Part shown: positions 14,030 to 64,000 of the stretch, piece after piece
How the letters are laid out: the number at the start of each line of letters is the position of its first letter
Position numbering within the stretch: the stretch's first letter is position 1
DNA from: Stachybotrys elegans
Lineage: Eukaryota; Ascomycota; Sordariomycetes; Hypocreales; Stachybotryaceae
NCBI GenBank assembly: GCA_020746835.1
Contig: JAGPNK010000014.1
Coordinates: 979,616-1,043,615 of the forward strand
Length of the DNA: 64,000 bases
Reading direction: 5' to 3'
Made by a program: the position numbers and the translations under genes
Notes under the pieces: generated by a model
Told to the model about the DNA's origin: nothing
What the model saw: the letters and a program-made list of their open reading frames with translations, nothing else
The model's database searches: none

Positions 14030-15664
14030 CCACCCAACCGAAGACCGACTCCCCATATAGAGCGCTCTATGTGGGATTTCCCGTTCGTGTGCCCCAATGG
14101 GATACAGACCAGTGACTTCGAATAGAGCGCTCTATCCTATGTCTGGGAGATTATGCTTCACCCAGAGATACCCTGAAGTGCGGCACGGATGAGATAGCCA
14201 TCACAAGAAATTGTCGCGATGCGCTGCGCACAATTCGCTGGCTCTTGGTCGACGCAATTTGTATTGACCAGGAACATGTAAAAGAAAGAACGCAGTAAGT
14301 CCAACTCATGTGTGACGTTTACGTGGCTTGGAGCTGGTGATGATGATACATGGTGGATGATGGATCGTCTCAAAGCAGCGGCCCAAACAAACTACCTACT
14401 TTTGGAACGGGTCCGGTTCTGTCGAGAGACTTGACCAGCTCACCTCATACAGTTTCCCCCAAACCCGCTGATATTTTCTCTTATGGGTTTTCTGAGTCTA
14501 TACCGTCCGCCCGGATGACTTTGAGAGGTACATGAATAGCTTCTTGGAGCAAGAATGGTTCTCACGCGCCTGACATTCCAAGAAGCTTTCTGCCTAGCCG
14601 TTCAATTCTAATATGCGGAGACAGTTTTCGTGAGTGGAAAACTATAGTGCAAGGTATGGCGATTCTCCGGTTCAAGTTTAGGTCCAAAACCCAAGGCCAT
14701 ATCGGCAAAAACCTACTATCCATTATCCTCTTTTGCGGCCTATACATTGCGAACTGTCGACCCCATTCGAGTTCTAACCAAGTTCCGAGCATTGGATCGA
14801 CTTGTTCAAATGTGGATGAAATTCGAAGACCCATACTTCCCGTGGATTCAACCTTTGGCAACATCTCAGACTCAAATCCTACACAATCCGTGTTCGATAG
14901 ACAGAATGTCCAAGTCCACCAGCTTTAGAGCAATGACTCGTACAAGCGTCTTGACAACCACGCCTTCAGACAACCTTTCATTGTACCTCTGTGCGCTTAT
15001 CATTGTGATTCTTCTACTTCAATTTGCTATTGGCATTGTTGCTGGCACTATCATTCCACTCCTTTTCATGACGTTCCAGCTCCGGCTCATCCTAGAGCTG
15101 GCAAGATGGCATATTGGCTTGACTCCAGAGGAGCACTCTCGGTTTCGTGATTTCTTGTATCCAGATGACGATGCCGATGAAGTCAAGGCTCTGCTGGTCG
15201 AGAGAGTAGTGATCAGCCTGCGCCAGCGACAAGCAAAAACACCACATGACAAGTCGTACGCCCTATACGGTATTCTGCAGAATATGTGGTTACAGGTTGC
15301 AGAAGTTGACTACAGCAAGTCGAGGGCACAAACGTTCCACAAGTTGATGATGGACCTTTTACACTGGCCGCCGGTAGCTCTTATAGTCCTTCTGGACGTC
15401 GGGCACGATTATTCGGAGATGAAAGATTCACCGTCTTGGGCCAGCTTCCATCCAAACCTACAATCTCAGACGACGACTTCCTCACCTCTCAGGTTCATGG
15501 ATGCGACTCTAGGATCCCGGCCTATCTTCAAACTGAGCGAGAACAGCCGCGTGCTTGTCACTAGAGGGCAGAAAAGATATTATATTGTTTTCTGCACACA
15601 GCCATTTCCAGCACTTTGTTTCAAATCGATAGTCGCAGAAGACATATGCGATTTTCCTCTTTAA
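14030..15664 (+). pseudogene. HET-domain (heterokaryon incompatibility) protein with membrane segment, broken
   Basis: HET motifs appear in changing frames: ALSYVWE (14126-14146), TRNCRDALRTIRWLLVDAICID (14205-14265), VTWLGAGDDDT, WFSR..FQEAF and RSILICGDSFREW (about 14605-14640). A 51-bp insertion with 14-bp flanking duplications lies just before the ALSYVW block, and several frameshifts and stops follow. The last part, from about 14747, is open for about 300 codons. It contains hydrophobic segments (LYLCALIIVILLLQF and IVAGTIIPLLFMTF), then a typical C-terminal HET-protein block (KSYALYGILQNMWL, EVDYSKSRAQTFHKLMMDLL). Such proteins trigger cell death on recognising non-self. The membrane segment is unusual but does occur in some HET proteins. 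Family firm, start unclear. Confidence 0.75.
14071..14121 (-). mobile_element. Micro-insertion copy 1 (51 bp) with 14-bp duplications
   Basis: A 51-bp segment starting GTGGGATTTCCCG is flanked by identical ATAGAGCGCTCTAT at 14057-14070 and 14122-14135. The same core recurs at 40605, 42060 and 45559. The duplicated target is nearly palindromic and encodes part of the conserved HET ALSY block. Orientation is given so that the end shared by copies is 3'. Confidence 0.85.
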
Positions 15665-19381: not shown

Positions 19382-22300
19382 ATGGAAGCACTTGGGGCGG
19401 CAGCGAGCATCACAGCGGTGCTCCAGATCCTCCACGATCGCTTACGTGAACACGGCCAAAGGCGCAGAGGAAAGAAAATCCTTGAGGGAGGCCTTCGCAT
19501 GTGAAGATGTCCTTGTCCAGCCCAAGGATGATTCATACGTCTCGAAACAAGGAGTGGTCTGCTAAGATTAATGCTATTGAAGCCAGGTGCACCGCTAGGC
19601 AGACTGAAAGTTGCCTTGCAAAAATTGCATGAGAAGCTTCTCCCCAACCACGCCGTGAAAGATATCCTAGCCAGTCTGAAATGGCCCTTCAGCGAAAAGA
19701 AGTCTGATTAATTCTCAACCGATCAAGCGAGGAAAGTCTCTCCTCGTTAGCTCTATCAAACAATTCCGCCAACTTCTGCAGGAGCTCAGCAGAATATCTA
19801 AAGACAGCAACGGCAAGCTCACGCACGGCTTGCAGAGCATGCAAGCCTCGGATGCTAGGATGTATGCAGGTCTCACATCCAGCCTGCAGAGCATTCAACC
19901 TATATGCACGCAGATTGGCAAGCGCAGGAGAGCCGCCATAAGAACCAGGACCTGTCGATTATTCTCGATTGGTTGTCGCTGGATAATTACGCTCAAGTCC
20001 AGAACGACATCTCTAGTCGCAGAAGCAGGGTACCGGGCAGTGGCGTCTCAACTCCCGGAGTTCCCAACTGGGTCGAGTCCGACAAGTAGACACTATATGC
20101 CAGGGCATGCCTGGTGACGGCAAGACGGTTTGACATCTGCTGTTGTCCAAGATCTCAACAACCATTTCCAAGGGGACACGAATGTAGGTGTCGCACACCT
20201 TTACTTCAATTATGATGGTATATACAAACAATAGCGGCCTTGCTACCGCAGGACAAAGAACAGAGCTAAGTAATGAAGGGATCGTCAGACTGTAGCTGAC
20301 ATCACCCGTTGGCCGGAGCTAGAGAACAATGAGGGGGCAGCAAAAGCGGCAGCAAAAGCGTATGTAGTCCGGGGGACCTGCGGTTAGCAGACTAGCCTCT
20401 CGATGTGTTACATACCGTTCGTCAGCGTGTATTCGCGATTCCGGCGGAATTCCTCAGACTGCATTACTTTAATTACACACGTCAGAACCCACTCAACTTC
20501 TTGCGAGCTTGCTGAGACATTGGCTGAACACTTCACGTTCCTGAGTCGGGGCGATTGCTACACAAGAAGCATCAGAATTACAAGACGCGACCAGCATTAA
20601 ACGAGATTCTAGAAGTCCTGAAATCCACAATTCAACAGTACTCAAACGTAGTCGTCGTTGACGCCCTTGACGAATGCCACACAACCAACGGCCATTGTGA
20701 AGAGTCTCTTCATGACCCGGCAATTACCGACCTTCTTGGTGAAAGGATTCCAGTTGATATTCCAGTTGGTACGCATGACGTTGACCTCTAGAAAATAAAG
20801 TGACGCGTTTACTCTCCGTGCAATGCCAGCCTGAGTTGCAGTACGAGATCATATCCGCAATTGTTGAGGCTGTCGATGGCATGTAAGCGCAAGATTCAAT
20901 AAACTCACACGCTAATTATTTCTTCTTCTTCACCTTGACAGCTTGGTCGGCAAGAAGTCCGTCAAAGCCCTCCGCAGTGCTCTCCCTCAGTTGCCTATGG
21001 ATCTTTGGCATACCATGCCGCTTACAACGAAGCCATGGAGCGAGCCAAATAACGGAACAGGAGGCATCATGTGGATCTCTCGCTTAATGAGACAACTGAC
21101 GACCAGTGAAGGACGCCCTTGCGGTGGAAATCGGCGAGACGACTCTCAACAAGGACAACATTCCGAAGTTGCTGATATGGTTTCACGCCGGTCTGGTGGT
21201 AGTCGACGGGCAAGTGACGCTATCCAGCCGGTGTACTACACGTAGGATTACAGCCGCAGGGCTGGACATGGCCACCACCGCTGCGTATACCTCTCGTTCT
21301 GATATTATTTTAGACCAATTCTACTCAAAATTGGTGATGAACTCGCGAAGAGTTGAAGGCAATTCATTTCAGCTACTGGGAGCCCATCCTCGGAACGCCA
21401 GAACGTATTCTCTGCATGTCATCAATTTCTTCGTTCTCACCACCATATCAAGACATATTGTCGAATGATTGGTGATTATGACGATGACTACCCTGAACCG
21501 GCAAACCATCATGCCCTGGCGGACTATTTCGGTATCAATTATGCAATGAAGATGTACATCAGCGAGGGCTGCCCTGATATGGAAGATGCGTTTGGCCGTT
21601 CTCCATTGCACTATGCAGCTGAGAATGGACATGATATTGTGAAAATACTGTCATCGAGAAAAACACATCCCGATAGAAAGGACAGGATACACACCGATTG
21701 CGATGGTAGCCTGGAGTGCGCAGATAACCGCGATGGGTTTATTGAAACCGTTAACCCCATATCGATGACACTATATAAACGCACAGAATTATCTTTGGCC
21801 GCAGAGAATAACCACATTGCAGTCGTCCAAATTGCTACTCAAGCTCAGCCTGGAGGAAATCAACACGCCGGATATTAACTACGCCATGCTTGTGGGAACG
21901 GCCATCTCGATCTTGTCAGGTTCTTCCTGGCCACGAACAGTATTGATATTAACGGAATCATCGACACATACCTTCGAGCCGCGCTCGACGAATGGTGATC
22001 TTGACATTGTCAGAACGTTTCTGAATACAGGTCGAGTTGATCCCAATGTCATTGTTGGTCATCAGCTCCATGGCATGTTGCCCGGAACGGTTATATCGAC
22101 ATCCGATGCTCTTGGAGGCACGGCAAATACCGATGCATTGGAAAAGTGTAGGGTGCTGGGACATGCGACTTCAGGTCATCTTGATGTCGTTAGAAGGTTC
22201 TTGAGTACTGATAAGGTTGATCTCCGCGCACCCGAAGAACACGGGTTCCTCACCCCTCTACAACGGGCCGTCGTGGGCGTGGGGGATAATAAGGACGTCG

Positions 22301-23487
22301 TGGAGCTTCTTCTCGAAAATGATAATGCCGATATCAACTCGAGCTATATGCAGGACAGGCCGCCACCCCTGTACATACGCAGCCAGGCTGCTGCTCAGCT
22401 ATTGCTAGACTGGAAAGCCAGTCCAAATGTCGTCGAACAGAAAGGTGGACTCAATAGTGCATCATCTCAATCAAGCAACACTTGATATTGATGTTGAGCT
22501 GCTGCTGGGTACACCTGGCTTCGAAGTTGAGGCCAGGATCTTGCGGACGGACTCTGCTATCACTGGTGTCTGGAACACAAGCTGATAGCTTCCAAACATT
22601 GCTCTTCAGAGAAGACGATCCCAGCTCTCGAGATCTGACATGGCCAACTCCTTCGAGCTATCGTATCCCTGCCTTCCAGGTGTTTATTCTATGCTGTTGG
22701 AAAGGGGCGCCAATCTTCAGAGTAGGGACTACATGGGAAGAGCGTCATTATCGCACGCTGCCGCGCAAGGTAAGTGGCTCGCACTCAATATTTTGCTTAA
22801 ATATAACGCTGACATGCACTCGAAGTACAACAATGGCCTAGCACCTCTTCACCACGCCGCAATATTCGCACGGAGAGAAGTGGATCCTATTGTCCTTGGG
22901 TAGGTTCCAAGGCCGACGCTGAAGACTACAGGGCGAACACCGCTTTCACGGTTCTGAATGAATGGGATAAACTCATGGAAGGATCCTACAATGACCCTCA
23001 GATCGAGGGCCACCTTCTTTCTATTAATCGAGGCTGGAGCTGACGTTAGTTGGATGGACAGCGACGGACAGCCACTTCTTTTCCACTGTCACTAGTAATG
23101 ATCTCTCTCTGGTCAAGGTGTCTTATGAACGGACCGCAGATTGACTCTGCGGACATATGTGGCCAAACACTACTTCTCCACGCTAGTCTTTCGTTGGACA
23201 ACATAGGAATGTAAAGACAGAAGTACGAGTATCCTGAAATACTTAATTGATGCCGGCGCCAATCCTTGCCATCAACCCCAGGACAACCAGACGGCTATAT
23301 CACATGCCACAGAGCCGTTATTACAGGCATTGAAGAGCTCTTTAAGGTCGAATAAGAACTTGACGCGATGCATATTAGAGAACAAAGAGTTGCAAGAAGA
23401 TGGCGATGAGAATTTCGTTCTCTATTGGAGGTTTGACATATATAAGTCAAAAAGAAATTATGTATTTTTAATTTATTTTGTTTCATA
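19382..23487 (+). pseudogene. NACHT-ankyrin NLR protein, interrupted and frameshifted
   Basis: ATG 19382 starts MEALGAAASITAVLQILHD, the usual opening of fungal STAND proteins with an N-terminal helical domain. The block LKWPFSEKE (19675) follows, and then ILDWLSLDNYAQVQ before the P-loop CQGMPGDGKT (20098-20127). A base is missing right after the P-loop, giving TGA at 20131. HLYFNYD is then interrupted by an LTR-derived insert (20217-20465). The gene resumes at YFNYTRQNPLNFLRAC and Walker B VVVVDALDEC (20648-20677). An exon junction near 20885-20941 leads to GKKSVKALRSALPQLP, then LAVEIGETTLNKDNIPKL. Ankyrin-like repeats run from about 21540 to 23330 (RSPLHYAAENGHDIVKIL, LERGANLQSRDYMGRASLSH), with more frame changes. 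It was a cytosolic immune-type receptor. The intact HeLo-E2 gene follows on the same strand. Confidence 0.85.
20217..20465 (-). mobile_element. LTR fragment inserted in the NACHT gene
   Basis: About 250 bp matching the internal part of the solo LTR at 11746-13053 (shared blocks AACAATAGYGGCCTTGCTACC, CGGTTAGCAGAC, GATTCCGGCGGAA). It lacks both LTR termini. It is flanked by TTACTTCAATTA (about 20201) and TTACTTTAATTA (about 20464), which both encode YFNY of the host gene and look like a diverged target-site duplication. Confidence 0.7.
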
Positions 23488-23766: not shown

Positions 23767-25994
23767 ATGGCTGAGGTTGCAGGCCTGGTGCTGGGCGCAC
23801 TCGGAATCGCTGGCCTGTTCACTGCTTGCATCGAAAACTTCGATATTATAGTCCGCGCCAGAGAGTGTAGCGAGGAATTCGAGCTCCTTTGCACTCAAGT
23901 ACGTCCTCATCGTCTGTCTCTCAATATCATATCGTTAACTCACACGCGCATGCTCCAGCTTGCCCTGCAACGGCTTCGATTGGTCATATGGGGTGAAACA
24001 TTGGGCCTGGTGCCAGCTCCTAACGGCGGAGCAGTACCATATAACCGGGCTTTGGAACGAAAGGATATCCGACCAGTTGTTGAAACCAGTCTCCATCAGT
24101 TGAAGCTTCTTTTGTGTAAAGCAGACGTCATAAATGGCCGGTACGCGCTGCCCGAGGAAGAGGCGACTGTTGCGCAGAAGCAACTGGCTGGCACTTCCTC
24201 ACATGGCATGGATATATTCCGAGAATCTTTCGAGAGATTTAGGATGAGGATCAGCAAAAGCCAAAAACAAAAGTCAGTTTGGACAGTCACCAGATGGGCC
24301 ATTCATGATTATCAACGATTCGAAACACTGGTCGACCAAATTACAAAACTACTCGATGCCTTGGAGAGTATAACAAGTGCCCTTGGCATTTTGGAGCAAC
24401 ATAATGCTCTCCTGGTAAATGAAATCGAGTCGCTCAGCAACACAGAGAGCCTGAGTCTCCTGCAACGGGTTGGCTCGTCCACAAGCGCGTCTGTTGCACT
24501 CAGAGAGGTGTCTGAGACGGCGAGCATACGGCTGTCAATCATGACGTCCAGCTCAAGGTCGTATTTCACTGCGCCACAGGAACAAACAGGAAGTTTGGCA
24601 TACAATCGACGCCAGGCCATGCTGGCAAGGGCATGGGAAGCAGGGGAAGCAGGGGCTTCCAAGCACCTGGTATCAGTTTACAGTGACCATCAGAAGATGA
24701 CCGAGGACGACACATACGACACGAGACAACTCGAGGACAAGAGCATCACCGATATACCACATCAACAACGATGGATGGCGGCCTTGATGAAAGATGAACC
24801 AGAGCTGCAAAAGTCTAGATCCATTTTCTCGGAAAAGGACATGCAATATGGGTGCCTTCTCCAGGAATTTAAGAACGAAGACGACGAAATTTGTGGTGCT
24901 GGCTCAGGCAGATTGGCTGTACAAGCACATGAAAATCTTCCCTTGGCTCGACGCGTGTTTCTGGAGTTGAGGAATATCCGTCGAGCCAAAATCTCGTTTA
25001 TCAGTGCTGTACCGGTAGAAGATAGTTTAGACAAAATCCTCGCGAGTATCGAGGGACCGCCTGGGACCCCATACGAGGGAGGCATCTTCTGGATTGCCGT
25101 AAAGATGATGGAGTCTAAGCCGCCCTTACTGCGGTTTCATACGAGGATATACCATCCCAACGTTGATCCCTCGGGGACGCTCTGTGCAGACTACGCTTCA
25201 TGGTGGCGGGACACCAACCAGCTAAACCAGCACGCTCACAAGATCCGCCAGAGAAGTCTTCCCTGGTTCTCCGAACATGCCACTAACCACTACTCGCTTG
25301 GGGCACTTCTGGTGGCCATCTGTGGTCTGCTCGCGGCTCCCAACATTGAGGATCCTCTAGTGCCCGAGATAGCCGAGAAATACTGCACTGACTACCAGGG
25401 TTATTGCAAGGCTGCCGAGCTATACACAGCTCGCTATGCTCGTACCAAGCGACCAGATCTTGCGAATCTGGTCTTTCCAAGTGAGGGGGCTGTATCTGAC
25501 CCAAGCTACGTCGCATCAGATTACAAGTCGAAACAGTACTCTGAAAGCTTGGTTGCTGAGGGCTTTTCCATAGCGGAACAGCCAGCCTTACTTTGGGAGC
25601 AGATTCCCGACTACATGCTATCTGTCGATGAGCTATGTGACGCACTTCGCGGCTGGTTTCCCGACACCTACTTTGATGCTCACGAGATCCTTTCAAGAAA
25701 AACAGGACATTCATACAGCATTTCCATTCCACGACACTTGAACGAGGTAGGAGCCACGTTATTAATTGGTTTTCCAGCTTACATAGTTAGGCCGAACTCA
25801 AGAAGATCCACGCGATGAGGGATATTCCCGATGATACCTTTGATGATGATGTGGAGGACTCACCCGATGATACCTTTGATGATGTGGTGTACCCACCCTA
25901 TACCTTTGACGCTATGGAGACCTCATCCGATGATGATAGCTTGATGGGGATCCTCGTGGAGGTAATCAAGAGGAAATGGAGAATGTTGCTTTAG
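23767..25994 (+). CDS. HeLo domain-ubiquitin-conjugating enzyme (E2) fusion protein
   Basis: Three exons (23767-23898, 23959-25746, 25791-25994) give 707 aa. Residues 1 to about 200 open MAEVAGLVLGALGIAGLFTAC, then EELLCTQ-like text spliced to LALQRLRLVIWGETLGL. This is the HeLo fold of HET-S/HELLP/NLR N-termini, which inserts into membranes to kill the cell. After a linker, residues about 371-560 form a full UBC domain: GPPGTPYEGGIFW, FHTRIYHPNV (HPN at 443-445), active-site Cys453 in GTLCADY, then LLAAPNIEDPLVPEIAEKY and a closing helix. HPN-to-Cys spacing is canonical. An insert lies after the Cys. Intron 1 is 60 nt and leaves the frame open, so unspliced reading is possible; splicing restores the HeLo helix. 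The last exon adds an acidic tail with repeated PDDTFDD. No lesion seen. HeLo proteins normally pair with NLRs, and a broken NACHT gene lies just upstream. Coupling to ubiquitin is inference. Confidence 0.88.
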
Positions 25995-45129: not shown

Positions 45130-47373
45130 AGAGGAAACTGGACGACATAGTGGACGTACCTAGATCCGGACTTTGATGCGCGCCGTTACAATGTCAATGT
45201 CAACCAGGACACACGTCAGAATCCGCTAGCTTATGAGGCACTTTCGTATACCTGGGGATCGGAGACGGCGACAACAGAGTTGGCAAATATCGTCCCTGAC
45301 ATTGGTGGAACTGCCAATGGCCTATTCTCCGGAGACACTCATCATTCGTGATACCTTGGCTTCAGCTTTGTGCCTCTGAGATATGAGGATCGCCCATGCA
45401 CACTGTGGATCGATGCGATATGCATCAACCAGCGTAACAAAGAGGAGTGCAGTCAATGGGTAAAGCGAGCGGCGACTGTGTATACAGAAATGAGGAACGT
45501 GGTGCTATGGCTCGGCCTCCTGTCAACGGACAGCGCACTTGCTATACACGCACTCGACCTTCCCGCGCCCGACGCCACGGCGGCATCTTCTAGGCAATTG
45601 CAGTATGTAGCTGGAAAACTTTGACACCTACCGCAGCTATAAGCGTTAAGCTTTTCTCAATCAAGTGTATTTTCTAAGCAATTGTTATCTATTGGTCTAA
45701 TATCGTCTTTATCATCAGAGGGGGCCTTCTCGAAGTCACTGGTCTGTATCCCATTAGGGCATACAAATAGGAAATACACGCACTCGACTATTTGGGAAAC
45801 CAGGTTGTCTGGAATACTGATATGCGTATGCTTAGCGCGCCACAAGCCGAAAACACGGAATGGTATAGTCCGCAAACTATCCTACTGTACGACAAGTCGA
45901 CATGGCGGCTATCGATTGCTTGCTGCGCCGTCCATGGTTTACCCGTGTCTGAATTGTCCAAGAGCTGCATCTCCCACGTCGGGCTGCCTTTGTATGTGGC
46001 AAGGACAAGGTATCGCGGGAGAAGTTCTAGCGAGCTATGCTCACAATGGCCCAAAAACTCCAGCTCTATCCAGCCATTTTACGCGAGGTTGTGCGCTTTG
46101 TCATGAGGGTGACTGTGCCCATCCTCCCTACCGCAGGTATCTTGCACATCATGACCAGGACCTTTCAGGGAAAATGCGCAAATGACAGAGACGTCATTTA
46201 CGGAGCCCTTAGACTCTTCCCAGTGTCTTTTCGGGACAAAGTCACTGTGGATTACTCCCTTAGCACGCGAGACGTGTATGCCAATTTCCTGAGATGCCAC
46301 GTCTCGCACGTAGGCCGCTTGGAAATGCTTCGCGTTTGTGATCTGGGAACACGAAGACCGGACATGCCCAGCTGGGTGCCGGATTTCACTCGCTCTTCCA
46401 GTCTAAGTATAGAACGAGGGGCAACTTGGCAGGTTTGTGCAGGCTATTCGGCCTGCTACGTTTCCTCCCGGGCCCAAGCTCTCAAGGCCAGCGGCGTCCA
46501 CGCGGCCGTCATCCAAGCCGCTGGCAAAGTAGTCCCGGACAACAGGCACGAATCCAGCTCAACGTTTCTTGATACGGTCAGACCTATGCGTAGTCTCATG
46601 GACGACTTCCAGGAAACCGAAGCAGCAACCAAATTCGGCACTGGTTCCAGAGTTTCATGTGGACAGTCGTCTACCGCTTCTTGCAGGATCGCCTGCCTGA
46701 GTTTTATCGGTCCATTGAAGGGACTGGGGACGGAGATCAACGAATCAATCATCTTTGGGTTTGGAGATGTAGAAAATGCAGTGTAAGGGAGTCTTTCCTA
46801 TGTCGAGGACTATTGTATCAACATGCTATTAAAGAGAAGGGTAGAGGACCACGGAGGGTTTCTGGGGCCTTGGGCCTTCCACTACTCAAGCAGGTAAGCT
46901 ACCAACTAACTGAAGCGATGATTCCTGCTGAAGCTGACTGTACCAGGAGATGTTATCGTCTGTCTGCTGCGTTTCGATTGCCCGGTGGTGCTGCGGAGAA
47001 CAAACAGCAAAGGGTTGTTGTTGGTTGGGGAGTGCTTTGTCCCCGAGCTGGCAGACCTGCGAGCCTTTCTCGGCCCACTTCCCTCTCCTTGGAAAGTCAA
47101 TTCCATATGGAGAACATTGATGGAGCGGGTGTCTATAAGTATTTTGATACCAAGACGGGAGAAGATAGTGACCAGGATCCTCACATGGGTGGTCTCCCTG
47201 ATGACATGGAAGTCGTCCCCAGGGACGAATTTGAGAGAACAGTAGATGACCCCATCACATTCCAGTGTTACAGAAACAAAATCACGGGTGCTACGATGAC
47301 GTCGGATCCCATACTGACCACGGATGCCTTGATAGAAGCTGGAGTTCCCATTGTGGAATTCACTCTTGTCTAA
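45130..47373 (+). pseudogene. HET-domain protein, broken by insertion and Trp-to-stop changes
   Basis: The N-terminal HET domain reads LAYEALSYTWGSE (about 45230), PCTLWIDAICINQRNKEECS (45395-45455) and RNVVLWLGLLSTDSA. The frame is then cut by a 215-bp insert with 15-bp duplications; removing the insert plus one duplication joins IHALD to YLGNQVVW in frame. A frameshift follows near 45910. In the restored frame PWFTRV*IVQELHL has TGA at 45950-45952 and KF*RAML has TAG at 46028-46030, both at conserved Trp positions. From 46037 the frame is open to about 46785 (RDVIYGALRLFP, RRPDMPSWVPDF), then moves to VIVCLLRFDCPVVLR and ends MEVVPRDEFE..., stop at 47371-47373. The intact protein would sense non-self and trigger incompatibility death. 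Confidence 0.82.
45559..45773 (+). mobile_element. Micro-insertion copy 4 (215 bp, longest) with 15-bp duplications
   Basis: Flanked by identical ATACACGCACTCGAC at 45544-45558 and 45774-45788. Its right half aligns with copy 3 (TTAAGCTTTTCTCAATC, CATCAGAGGGGGCC, CACTGGTCTGTATCCCATTAGGGC). Its left 90 bp are unique in the window, so it is the least truncated copy. Confidence 0.88.
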
Positions 47374-52800: not shown

Positions 52801-55181
52801 GGCATCCTGTCTCTTGCGGGTGATGTCCAGGTCAAAGGAAAAGTCATAAACCTCCGAAGTAGGAGGTCGTCGCCCCTTGACGTTGGGGATGGTTTGATCT
52901 AGACAGAGTTAATGGAAGCATCATATAATGAAGTGAACTCACCTTGGGAGACCTCTAGAGCTATAGCCCGTGCAAACAAGTTGCGACCGCACTAATTTTC
53001 GGTTAATGACACGACTTCAAGGTAGGGAATACTTACATTGTCAGGCATCTCCACTATGGTTCCCTCGACACCCTCCTTCATGACATTGAAGCACGCCGCA
53101 ACGTCTTGGCTCAGACACACCACTCTGGCCATTTGTACCTTGTTCTTGGGCTGCATCGAGACTCTATTGGGGCAATCCAAAAATATGAACGGTTCGGGAA
53201 TACCGTTTCTCCTCTTGAGAGAAGTCATGGCATGAGACTCGCCCGCCACGAGAATGAAGCCGAACCCGGTCTCGTTGGGGTCCACGGCACCCAGGTTAGC
53301 ATTCGATCCAAAGTTGACCAGACCCCAGTTAAGCGGACCGTCCTCAGGACGCAACATGTCTGATGGGAAGAGATTCTCAAGGTCAACAAGACCAAAGGGA
53401 CTGTTGGAACCCGGGATATAGCTGCGCCCAGTCACAGAGCTGAGGGCGTCCAGAGATCCGGTATCAAGGTCAATAGCCCAGATCATCAGTCCGCGCAATC
53501 CCATTTGAGCCGCATAGTCAATCTTTAACTCAAACGTTTCAGAATCGTCGAAGCTTGCAGTGTCAGCGGGATAGAGCAGAGGACATGTGTAACTCACGAG
53601 ATCCAACTGTGCCCATTATATACCATGTACTTTGCAGCAGCGGCTTCGTCGAAGAAAGGTGTGCCTCCTGTTCTTTCCAAAATCTCCATTATTTCTGTGA
53701 AATGTCAGTAGTGTTATAGAGCTTTCGGTATCTTGAAATTCTTACCATTGTAAGCTAGGATACCGGGTGCTCTGGAACAGCGCCCTTCGGCACCTGGGCC
53801 ACGGAAACTGCATCCGGGCTTCCAACAAGACGAAGACTCGAGTTCAAAGGAGCGGCCGTAGAATCCTAATCCAAGAACCACGTTGCTAGGTTGGACACCA
53901 ACGCGCCAGAACTATATTCTTAGTGAATGATTGCAACGCAGAATGGGAGTGACTAACCAGGTCCAACGCAAGGTCTATCTCCGTCAGGTTTGTGTGGGAT
54001 AAGACTTGATTGCCGATGGGGTTGTCACCATCCCATACTCCGTGTAGATCATATGACATGAGATTTATCCAGTCGACTTGGGCCTCCATCCCTGGAAGAT
54101 CGAAGTGGCGGAGATACCAGTAGGATGAAGGCGCGGTAAAAGTGACAATCAAGTCGCGCCCGCTGGCATTGATGGCCGCCCGTAGTTCACGCAGCAGAGC
54201 CGTGTAATTCTCGGCGTCATCCTCGAGACCCCCACGGTCCTCAGCGCCAGGGTATTCCCAGTCTATATTGTTAGCATCTAACTCGTTCCATTAGGTCGGT
54301 TCTGATGACACACCAAAATCTATGAATAAGTCAGCTCATGTCTGTCATGATACATGCACCGACTTACCAACACCATCATAGCCATATTCAGACATGAATC
54401 CCATAAGGTTTCGTATGAATATAGCTCGATTGGCCGCAGATGATGCCATCTCGGGAAATATGTGCCTCCATGGACCAGGGTCGCTAAAGGCCCAGCCCCC
54501 AAGCGCGATAACCACCTTGAGTTCGGGGTTGCGAGCTTTGACGTTGCCAATAGTCTTGAAGATTTCTGGATCAACGCCGTCCATGTTGGTTATCTCCCAC
54601 GCATCGTTGACGTACCCAAACGATACAAACAGATGGGTTAGCATATGGACAGGAATCTCACCGGGACCCATGGTACCACATGGCTTGTCCATATTCCATG
54701 CCTCCCAGTACCCGATGATGATATCTCTAGGGTTGGAAGGGGAGCCACCCGGCGAAGGAGTCTCGCAGTTAGACTGGCAGCCATCGCTGCAGAACTCGGA
54801 AGTCGTGCCACAAAAGCCATGGCGGGAGCAGCACACGTTGAGTGGACACCCTTGACCTGGAGTGCTAGCAAACCTACCGCACTCAGCTGTTGCATCACAA
54901 TTAGACTGGCAGCCGTCCGAGCAGTAGTCAGGCCCATAACCACACCAGCCGTCTTCGCCACAACATGCTCCGTTTACACAGGGTCTTCCGGGAGCACAGG
55001 TAAAGTCGTTAGTATCCTCAGCTTGAGATGTTGCCCATACTTGATCCAAGCGGAGGATGCTGGAATTGCGGGATGCCGGAGCATCCAAACCGTTGCTGGA
55101 GGATTGCGCCCAGGTTTGACTGCAATGGTAAAGTATAATAAAGAAGGAATGGAGAAGAGTGCTCTTCACAAAAAATGCCAT
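49885..55181 (-). CDS. Killer-toxin-type GH18 chitinase with two hevein-like chitin-binding modules
   Basis: About 1525 aa in 16 exons: 54368-55181, 54314-54319, 53958-54262, 53746-53911, 53598-53694, 53037-53553, 52943-52991, 52438-52898, 51833-52387, 51699-51787, 51616-51651, 51514-51568, 50795-51478, 50368-50736, 50086-50317, 49885-50026. A signal peptide precedes two Cys-rich ChtBD1 modules (CGEDGWCGYGPDYC; CCSRHGFCGTTSEFC). The GH18 barrel follows, with its catalytic DGVDFDWE (residues 269-276, acid Glu276) encoded across a 6-nt microexon. Then FYGRS, WISFDD and GLMIWAIDLD, then a long C-terminal region ending QTEHVFEGQLIG and EVWQAFCSVYEAIYD. Exon lengths sum in frame for the first 1050 codons. 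Near 51415 the frame changes without an intron (ATYNDHLLG to SDGGWPYGSE), consistent with one missing base. The last intron is tentative; without it the stop is at 50034. Secreted, degrades chitin; divergent from a LysM gene. Confidence 0.85.
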
Positions 55182-61949: not shown

Positions 61950-62089
61950 TTTCCACACATCTGCTTTGACCTTGGTACGATCTTGATTTGGAAATGCCGT
62001 TGCTTATGGGCGTATACTGTTGTCGATGACCTTAACCTTAGATAGCCATGAACGGGGTAAATATAAGACTGCGGTGTATGCATCTAAAG

Positions 62090-63890
62090 ACGGTTTTAAA
62101 GAGCTATTATTAATAATTTTTATATAATAATTAGTATAGTAATTAAAGGCTAGCTATAAAATATAAATAAAGTTAAAATACTTATTATTTATAATATACT
62201 AACTAAAAATTTATCTTTTATATTATTTATATTAATACTATAGTTTTAAAATATAAATAATTTATTATAGTTTTAAAATTAAAACTATAAAGTTAAATTA
62301 AATACTTTATAAAATAATAATAATAATTATATAAAAATAATATATAATATATAATATAATTAATATATTTATAATATATAAAATAAAATTTAAATAAAAA
62401 TAAAAATAATTATATTATATATAATATAATTTTATATATATTATTATAAATATATATATATATATAATAAAATTAAAATATATATAATATAAAATAATTA
62501 ATATATTTAAAATTAAATTTTATATAATAAAAATAAAATATAAAATAAATATAATATATATTAAATAATTATATATATTTTTATATTTAAATATATATTA
62601 AAAATAAAAATTTAAAATAAATAAAATATAATAAAAATAATATATTAAATATTAAATATAATATAATAAATATAAAATTTAAAAATAATATATTATATAT
62701 TATATATTTTTATAAAAAATATAATAAAATTTAATATTTAAAATATAAAATTAAATTATAAAATATATTTTATAATTAATATATTTAATAATAAAATTAA
62801 TAAAATAAATTTAAAATATAAAATAAAAATATTATATATAATAATAATTTATAATAATATATTTATTATTTAATATTATAATTATAAAAATAAAATATTT
62901 AATATATATAATAATTAATATATTTAATAATAAAATTAATAAAATAAATAAAAAATAAAAAATAAAAAGTTTATATATAATAATAATTTATAATAATATA
63001 TTTATTATTTAATATTATAATTATAAAAATAAAATATATAATATATATAATAATTAAAATATTTAATAAAAAATATACTAAAATATAAATAAAATATAAA
63101 ATAAAAATATAATATATTTATATTTATAATTAGATAATATATATATATTAATTAAATATATATAATATAATAAAATTAATAATTTTATAATTAAATATAA
63201 TAAAATTAAAATAAAATTTAAATTAAATATATTATATATAATAATATTTTTTAAATATATATATATTATTTAAAATTATAAATATAAAATTAAAATATAA
63301 AAAATATATTATAATTAATATTATTAAAAATAAAAAATAAAATATATAAAATAAATATATTATAAATTATATAATTTAATAAATATATTTATTAAATAAA
63401 ATATTAAAAATTAAAAATAAAAAAATAATAAATATAAAATAATTAATATATTAAAAATTGAATAAAAAAATAAAAAAATATAATATATAAAAATATATTA
63501 AATATTATATAAATTTATATATATTTTTTAATAAAATTATATATAAAATATAAAATTAAAATAAATAAAATATAATAAAATAAATATATTTAAAATTAAA
63601 TATAATAATATAAATATAAAATATAAAATAAATATATTATATATTATATTTTTTTAAATATAAAGTAAAACTATTTAAAAAAAAAAAATATTAATATAGG
63701 TTTTTTTTTAATTATATTAAAATTAAATAAATTATATAAATATTTAATTATATATTATAAAAACTATAGTTATAAATATAATTATAAATAAATTAATAAT
63801 AATATAATTAATAAATAGAGTTTTTTATTTATAAATTAAAAATATATTAAATATTATTTAGGCCTTTTTAAAATTCTTAGTATTAAAAAG
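62090..63890. repeat. Extremely A/T-rich subtelomeric block
   Basis: About 1.8 kb made almost only of A and T (long lines contain no G or C at all), with ATATAT runs, AATAAAAT words and a few near-repeated segments (for example the TTTATAATAATATATTTATTATTTAATATTATAATTATAAAAATAAAAT type at 62847 and 62987). G and C reappear only in the last 60 bp before the telomere. It holds no gene. Confidence 0.95.
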
Positions 63891-63900
63891 CGTCTTACCC

Positions 63901-64000
63901 TTAGGGTTAGGGTTAGGGTTAGGGTTAGGGTTAGGGTTAGGGTTAGGGTAGGTTAGGGTTAGGGTTAGGGTTAGGGTTAGGGTTAGGGTTAGGGTTAGGG
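63901..64000 (+). repeat. Telomere, (TTAGGG)n
   Basis: Eight perfect TTAGGG units (63901-63948), one variant TAGG (63949-63952), then eight more perfect units to the end. The G-rich strand runs 5'-3' outward, so this is the right chromosome end. Confidence 0.99.

Follow-up and report, generated by a model that had tools for sequence, protein, structure and literature searches.

The 64,000-nucleotide stretch of Stachybotrys elegans DNA analysed here (the window; positions 979616-1043615, from a 43.4-Mb assembly of 61 contigs) carries on its plus strand a gene (23767..25994) whose 707-residue product joins a HeLo domain to a complete E2 ubiquitin-conjugating (UBC) domain. It is not one lone gene: about 170 of the fungal proteins retrieved are assigned to one family, in which the same fusion recurs. 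As part of our best explanation, we infer that the window gene encodes a fungal regulated-cell-death protein of this conserved HeLo-E2 family. Our tentative model, held with somewhat less than even confidence, is that HeLo would be the executor and its built-in E2 would modify HeLo assemblies.

The HeLo-E2 gene and its subtelomeric surroundings

The gene model comprises three exons (23767-23898, 23959-25746 and 25791-25994), read from translation and Pfam matches. A single open frame, 683 codons long (23767-25818), spans both HeLo and E2. Splicing of the two introns placed at 23899-23958 and 25747-25790 in a preliminary description, made from the sequence alone, yields 707 residues ending at 25994. 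Intron 1 (60 nt, in frame) is absent from the deposited S. elegans protein (P0001), and its removal completes the HeLo match. P0001 has 663 residues, with intron 1 out and intron 2 (44 nt) read through; the fusion gene matches it at 100% as far as intron 2, and its 23-residue end differs from the spliced reading owing to the retained intron. The spliced junction of intron 2 aligned ungapped over 23 residues with Hypoxylon P0007 (E 1e-4, a single comparison) and, by eye, with Paramyrothecium P0003. With five alternative acceptors this junction alignment was partly or wholly lost. On the acceptor comparison and the ungapped P0007 junction, the deposited 663-residue end was rejected for the 707-residue end, and we take the two-intron model to be the better one, the deposited protein favouring intron 1 and the P0007 junction intron 2. 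The description of one intact gene is likewise borne out by the open frame and the presence of all catalytic residues. The fusion gene is single-copy in the S. elegans genome, where a DNA search finds only the gene itself and a protein search gives 12 further matches, each to HeLo alone or E2 alone.

The end of the window is a subtelomere, with a GC content of 0.07 over 62001-64000 and closing TTAGGG repeats. This AT-rich region looks RIP-mutated. At 14114-14328 and 45160-46441 there are interrupted HET-domain stretches that have matches among proteins of the S. elegans genome, and broken ankyrin-repeat frames (21576-22903) lie just upstream of the fusion gene on the same strand. The surroundings had been called a graveyard of HET and NLR genes. 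The HET remains agree with this, but no NLR was found in the window with eight probes and among the scored NPHP3_N candidates. Nor is the fusion gene one of very few intact genes, as had been proposed: several other long open frames occur in the window, including a dehydrogenase, pieces of chitinase, a DUF3433 gene and an F-box-like frame that scored under its cut-off. Chitin-binding and GH18 chitinase frames at 52992-55181 on the minus strand are perhaps one intron-bearing or broken gene. No partner gene was identified around the fusion gene in the window. Over the whole genome, HET gave at least 150 matches (150 of 309 candidates were scored) and NPHP3_N gave 135.

Domain architecture, E2 chemistry and the homologue family

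The HeLo domain occupies residues 1 to about 235 (23767..24531; all features of the gene lie on the plus strand). In a Pfam search with the window protein, the HeLo profile PF14479 matched residues 6-212 with an E value of 9.7e-43, covering profile positions 1-205 of 205. This full-length match and the sequence match to the HET-s structures 2wvo, 2wvn and 2wvq agree with the HET-S-type N-terminus proposed earlier. The domain begins with a hydrophobic N-terminal helix; the 19-residue Kyte-Doolittle maximum is 2.25 within the first 30 residues of the window protein, and the corresponding family median is 2.07 (79 complete N-termini). A Foldseek/VIA structure search supported an E2 fold for residues 370-539. 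Because the rows shown in that search were all E2 and none HeLo, the HeLo assignment rests on sequence.

A linker (residues 236-305; 24532..24741), mostly disordered in the structure model (pLDDT 34-49 in blocks 241-300), is followed by a partly helical lead-in (residues 306-370; 24742..24936), so that the E2 is preceded by about 60 conserved residues. Columns of the lead-in conserved at 90% include P311, Q312, R315, Y341, G342 and D352, and helices are predicted at 312-323 and 346-368. The E2 domain spans residues 371-540 (24937..25446; Pfam 379-532, PF00179), and significant HeLo and UBC matches thus occur in one chain. The domain is complete, as had been described, with HPN at 443 and, ten residues on at canonical spacing, Cys453 (codon 25183..25185), which aligns with the UBE2D cysteine. 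The block containing Cys453 has a pLDDT of 74; the pTM of the model is 0.50, and the relative placement of the domains is not fixed by it. The C-terminal region (residues 553-640; 25483..25746), is partly common to P0002-P0013, and a small helix-strand unit is predicted in it at 600-640 (pLDDT 65-77 over 601-640). Exon 3 (25791..25994) encodes an acidic tail and the stop, without a Pfam match. In the window protein, Pfam detected no domain after the E2, no ankyrin, TPR or WD repeats, and no NACHT or NB-ARC NTPase at E 1 or better.

At a threshold of E 1e-3, a homologue search with residues 300-600 returned 215 proteins. In the best 120 of these 215, PF00179 was present in 120/120 and PF14479 in 102/120, as read from the precomputed Pfam column. 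On the pair in 102/120 homologues, together with the one frame over both domains, two genes or a mis-joined model were rejected. Further searches from Rutstroemia P0093 and from the divergent P0163 returned 110 and 8 proteins; among the 8 were six HeLo-E2 proteins not retrieved before, including one of the lichen Xylographa. The collected set numbered 172; after removal of P0165 and P0172, other E2 proteins without HeLo, 170 were assigned to the family. These include the cut model P0164 and P0159, in which the catalytic part is missing. Members that bear a name come from Hypoxylon, Apiospora, Lasiosphaeria and Fusarium (Sordariomycetes), Cadophora, Mollisia and Phialocephala (Leotiomycetes), and Cladophialophora and Talaromyces (Eurotiomycetes), among others. 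Many matches are nameless, and none of those listed was named as a Podospora anserina protein. No match to the family HeLo model at E 1e-5 was found in 21 of the 172 proteins, two of them being P0165 and P0172. Many of the others have their start beyond HeLo, which is what gene calling that ignores introns would produce, and HeLo-less family forms may exist.

The catalytic residues are nearly invariant. H443, P444 and C453 were found in 120/120 aligned rows and N445 in 119/120. The acids D455 and D509, equivalent to UBE2D D87 and D117 by the alignment made in this analysis, were kept in 109/120 and 119/120, respectively. The pattern HPN-x7/8-C occurs in 162/164 members from the residues-300-600 and P0093 searches (163/165 with P0165), the exceptions being P0055 (HPT) and P0159, and in all six new proteins of the P0163 search. 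On this conservation of HPN and Cys, a dead E2 was rejected. In UBE2D1, D117 orients the incoming lysine, and UBE2L3, with His at this position, is without lysine reactivity (excerpts of PMC5095918 and PMC8899012); E2s without HPN, such as UBE2Q, act on other residues (PMC10971424, in excerpt). Judged by its residues, lysine transfer is the likely chemistry of the E2.

Two lineages differ in the spacing between Cys and the DPLVPEI motif. In the main lineage the median is 55, with 48 or more in 153/158 proteins (158 of 162 counted, the others having failed the patterns; one value, -428, is a pattern mismatch), while in the second lineage it is 31-33 in 8/8, the classical spacing. Main-lineage members thus have about 24 extra residues at the place of the UBE2D E3 loop, corresponding to about residues 461-487 (25207..25287) of the window protein, where we take UBE2D to have its E3-contact residues. 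Because the spacing in the second lineage is the classical one, the insert looks later, though the deep branches of the tree are weak. A family-wide loop shortening near UBE2D F62, expected from pairwise alignment, was not borne out by the spacings: in the main lineage the spacing is 27 in 51/158 and 30, as in UBE2D2, in 77/158. By a crude offset count, 42/158 main-lineage proteins have an aromatic residue at the F62 place. Support for the second lineage was 86/43 in a 38-row E2 tree, on which two changes are required for the main lineage owing to the cut P0164. In a 167-row tree, in which long branches meet, the outgroup split had support of 75. A single origin of the fusion is favoured.

The HeLo-E2 fusion was not found in the literature searched, which covers few subscription papers or preprints. 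The excerpts consulted of PMC9815663, PMC10197012, PMC4986451, PMC12258605, PMC12881547, PMC4518210 and PMC3321046 (ubiquitin/UBC) do not mention it. Among these, PMC9815663 describes, in the part consulted, NLR N-termini with Crinkler domains of the ubiquitin clan, which are not E2s. Both Pfam accessions stand in one table of PMC6525431, each in a row of its own. NCBIfam has no named family for P0001 or P0163, and such proteins already carry automatic domain labels in databases. Within the literature searched the family is undescribed. Its layout, common to many fungal proteins of which a few have the sensor repeats of fungal immune receptors, suggests a type of self-destruct protein that has drawn little notice.

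Variable C-termini and receptor-like members

The length of the chain after the DPLVPEI motif varies from 11 to 683 residues (113 of the best 120 proteins measured). Recognised repeats are present in 7 of about 170 members, five with ankyrins (P0003, P0019, P0090, P0098 and P0160) and two with TPRs (P0081 and P0122). Other extra domains are a C2H2 finger in P0044, DnaJ in P0132 and SAM in P0159. P0048 (Echria macrotheca) combines HeLo, E2 and a protein kinase in one chain. In P0164 (Talaromyces proteolyticus), a serine-esterase domain (DUF676) precedes a weak HeLo and an E2 that breaks off before its end, which places two effector-type domains on one E2. On the 167-row tree the ankyrin label needs three changes, of which at least two fall on starred branches. 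Two ankyrin members and both TPR members share one starred six-row clade; for these reasons the C-terminus is taken to be exchangeable.

P0122 contains seven full 42-residue TPR units that are 86-98% identical (mean 90%). Fungal NLRs are enriched in repeats with more than 85% internal identity, and most such TPRs are 42 residues long (Dyrka and co-workers, PMC4986451, in excerpt). Near-identical ankyrin repeats were not found: in four of the five members that bear ankyrins, neighbouring units compared with a simple pattern are 39-64% identical, and these units are not NLR-like in internal identity. Like TPRs elsewhere in the S. elegans genome gave 71 matches, of which six loci were sampled as a control. 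Five of the six carry NB-ARC, HET, PNP_UDP_1 or DUF7779, the last of which we assume to be an NB-ARC neighbour. HET, NB-ARC and TPR share one frame at L052, and at L048 neighbouring frames hold PNP_UDP_1, an NB-ARC match just below the cut-off and TPR. L051 has PNP_UDP_1, DUF7779 and TPR, L050 and L053 have DUF7779 and TPR, and L049 has WD40 and TPR frames only.

Four places in the S. elegans genome (C60, C7, C9 and C27) have HeLo followed by an NPHP3_N NACHT on the same strand within 320 bases, and the closest HeLo to that of the window protein is the C60 HeLo-NACHT, at 31% identity. Because HeLo precedes NACHT in these four pairs, the E2 occupies the middle place of the STAND NTPase. The seven repeat-bearing members point to a receptor-like reading; the window protein is itself without repeats. 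On this basis the family might comprise NTPase-less fungal immune receptor-executors, with HeLo as killer, an active E2 as central switch, exchangeable sensors, a threshold set by the ubiquitin thioester and, in the main lineage, an E2 working without ordinary E3s. We regard this extended proposal as rather unlikely. If true, it would add an immune-receptor layout with an E2 where the NTPase normally stands, and ubiquitin-thioester chemistry, not nucleotide exchange, would set the death threshold.

Proposed function and relation to known systems

In the executor model that we tentatively prefer, HeLo would be an executor that is active at membranes but latent at first. The chains would cluster in response to a trigger, which either the C-terminus or a partner would sense, and the E1-charged E2, acting with little or unusual E3 help, would then ubiquitylate HeLo or the linker in cis or in trans. 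Ubiquitin would license HeLo assembly at the membrane, as ubiquitylation of K219 does for MLKL (PMC8184782, in excerpt). Because it is without a repeat sensor, the S. elegans copy would act downstream of another protein or via its short C-terminal region. The mechanism could also run in reverse, with ubiquitin restraining HeLo. In favour of the executor model are the one-frame fusion and its recurrence, the conserved catalytic residues, the members with ankyrin or TPR repeats, the HeLo-NACHT pairs of this genome and the MLKL precedent. Points against it are the small number of repeat-bearing members, with the window protein not among them, ankyrins that are not near-identical, the modest confidence of the structure model and the lack of a partner gene. 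Incompatibility in P. anserina raises the expression of seven of eight additional HeLo genes, and genes that go up in Podospora as well as in Neurospora show an enrichment of ubiquitin-related domains (PMC3689799, in excerpt). We treat these data as context only, because the eight HeLo rows of Table 5 in that excerpt, het-S included, list no E2.

It is doubtful that the E2 is instead a payload and HeLo its address, the protein docking on membranes or HeLo-NLR assemblies while the E2 marks proteins for turnover or signalling. The E2 chemistry is indeed the best conserved part, and the genome contains separate HeLo-NACHT genes, the closest HeLo (31%) being among them. However, the hydrophobic N-terminal helix, the membrane-attack part of HeLo, is kept (median 2.07 in 79 N-termini), and HeLo domains assayed elsewhere are toxic (PMC12881547, in excerpt). 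Less probable again is an E2 that serves as a safety catch, sending stray HeLo chains to the proteasome by self-ubiquitylation until a trigger blocks it. A lysine-reactive E2 (acid at the D117 position in 119/120) on a flexible linker would readily self-modify, but the conserved extra loop and exchangeable sensors would be superfluous to such a catch.

The absence of repeats from the window protein could be read as decay. The nearest named relative, P0003, has ankyrins, the window gene ends in a short acidic tail, and broken HET and ankyrin stretches lie close by, as expected if the family were functional and the S. elegans copy a weakened remnant that lost its repeat sensor in a decaying subtelomere. 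The open frame with full catalytic residues makes this improbable, as do P0002 and the Hypoxylon-type P0004-P0013, which are likewise repeat-free in the Pfam column. A non-catalytic scaffold, as in UEV proteins, would suit the replacement of the usual E3 loop by an insert in the main lineage but is very hard to credit with Cys and HPN in 162/164 members, the exceptions being one HPT and one protein without the catalytic part.

HeLo proteins are fungal kin of MLKL, and most of what is known of their switching-on concerns control by amyloids and NLRs. A conserved E2-in-executor family would place ubiquitin chemistry inside the killing protein itself, and a comparison of C453A with wild type could then probe the MLKL-ubiquitin link within a single chain. 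MLKL is ubiquitylated by other enzymes.

Compared with known systems, the fusion protein resembles HET-S of Podospora anserina in its HeLo domain, by sequence to the HET-s structures, and in its hydrophobic N-terminal helix, but the family has an E2 and a variable C-terminus where HET-S has its prion-forming domain. With HeLo-NACHT receptors it shares the leading HeLo and, in seven relatives though not in the window protein, a C-terminal ankyrin or TPR array; it differs in having an E2 in the NACHT/NB-ARC place and no NTPase by Pfam. UBE2D/Ubc4-type E2s have the same fold, HPN, Cys and acids at the D87 and D117 positions, whereas the fusion adds HeLo, the lead-in before the fold and, in the main lineage, an insert of about 24 residues behind the active site. 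The four-helix bundle of MLKL is reported to be homologous to HeLo (PMC10197012 and PMC9815663, in excerpt), and its licensing by ubiquitylation (PMC8184782, in excerpt) parallels the proposed model. Where MLKL has a pseudokinase (PMC12881547, in excerpt), the fusion has an E2.
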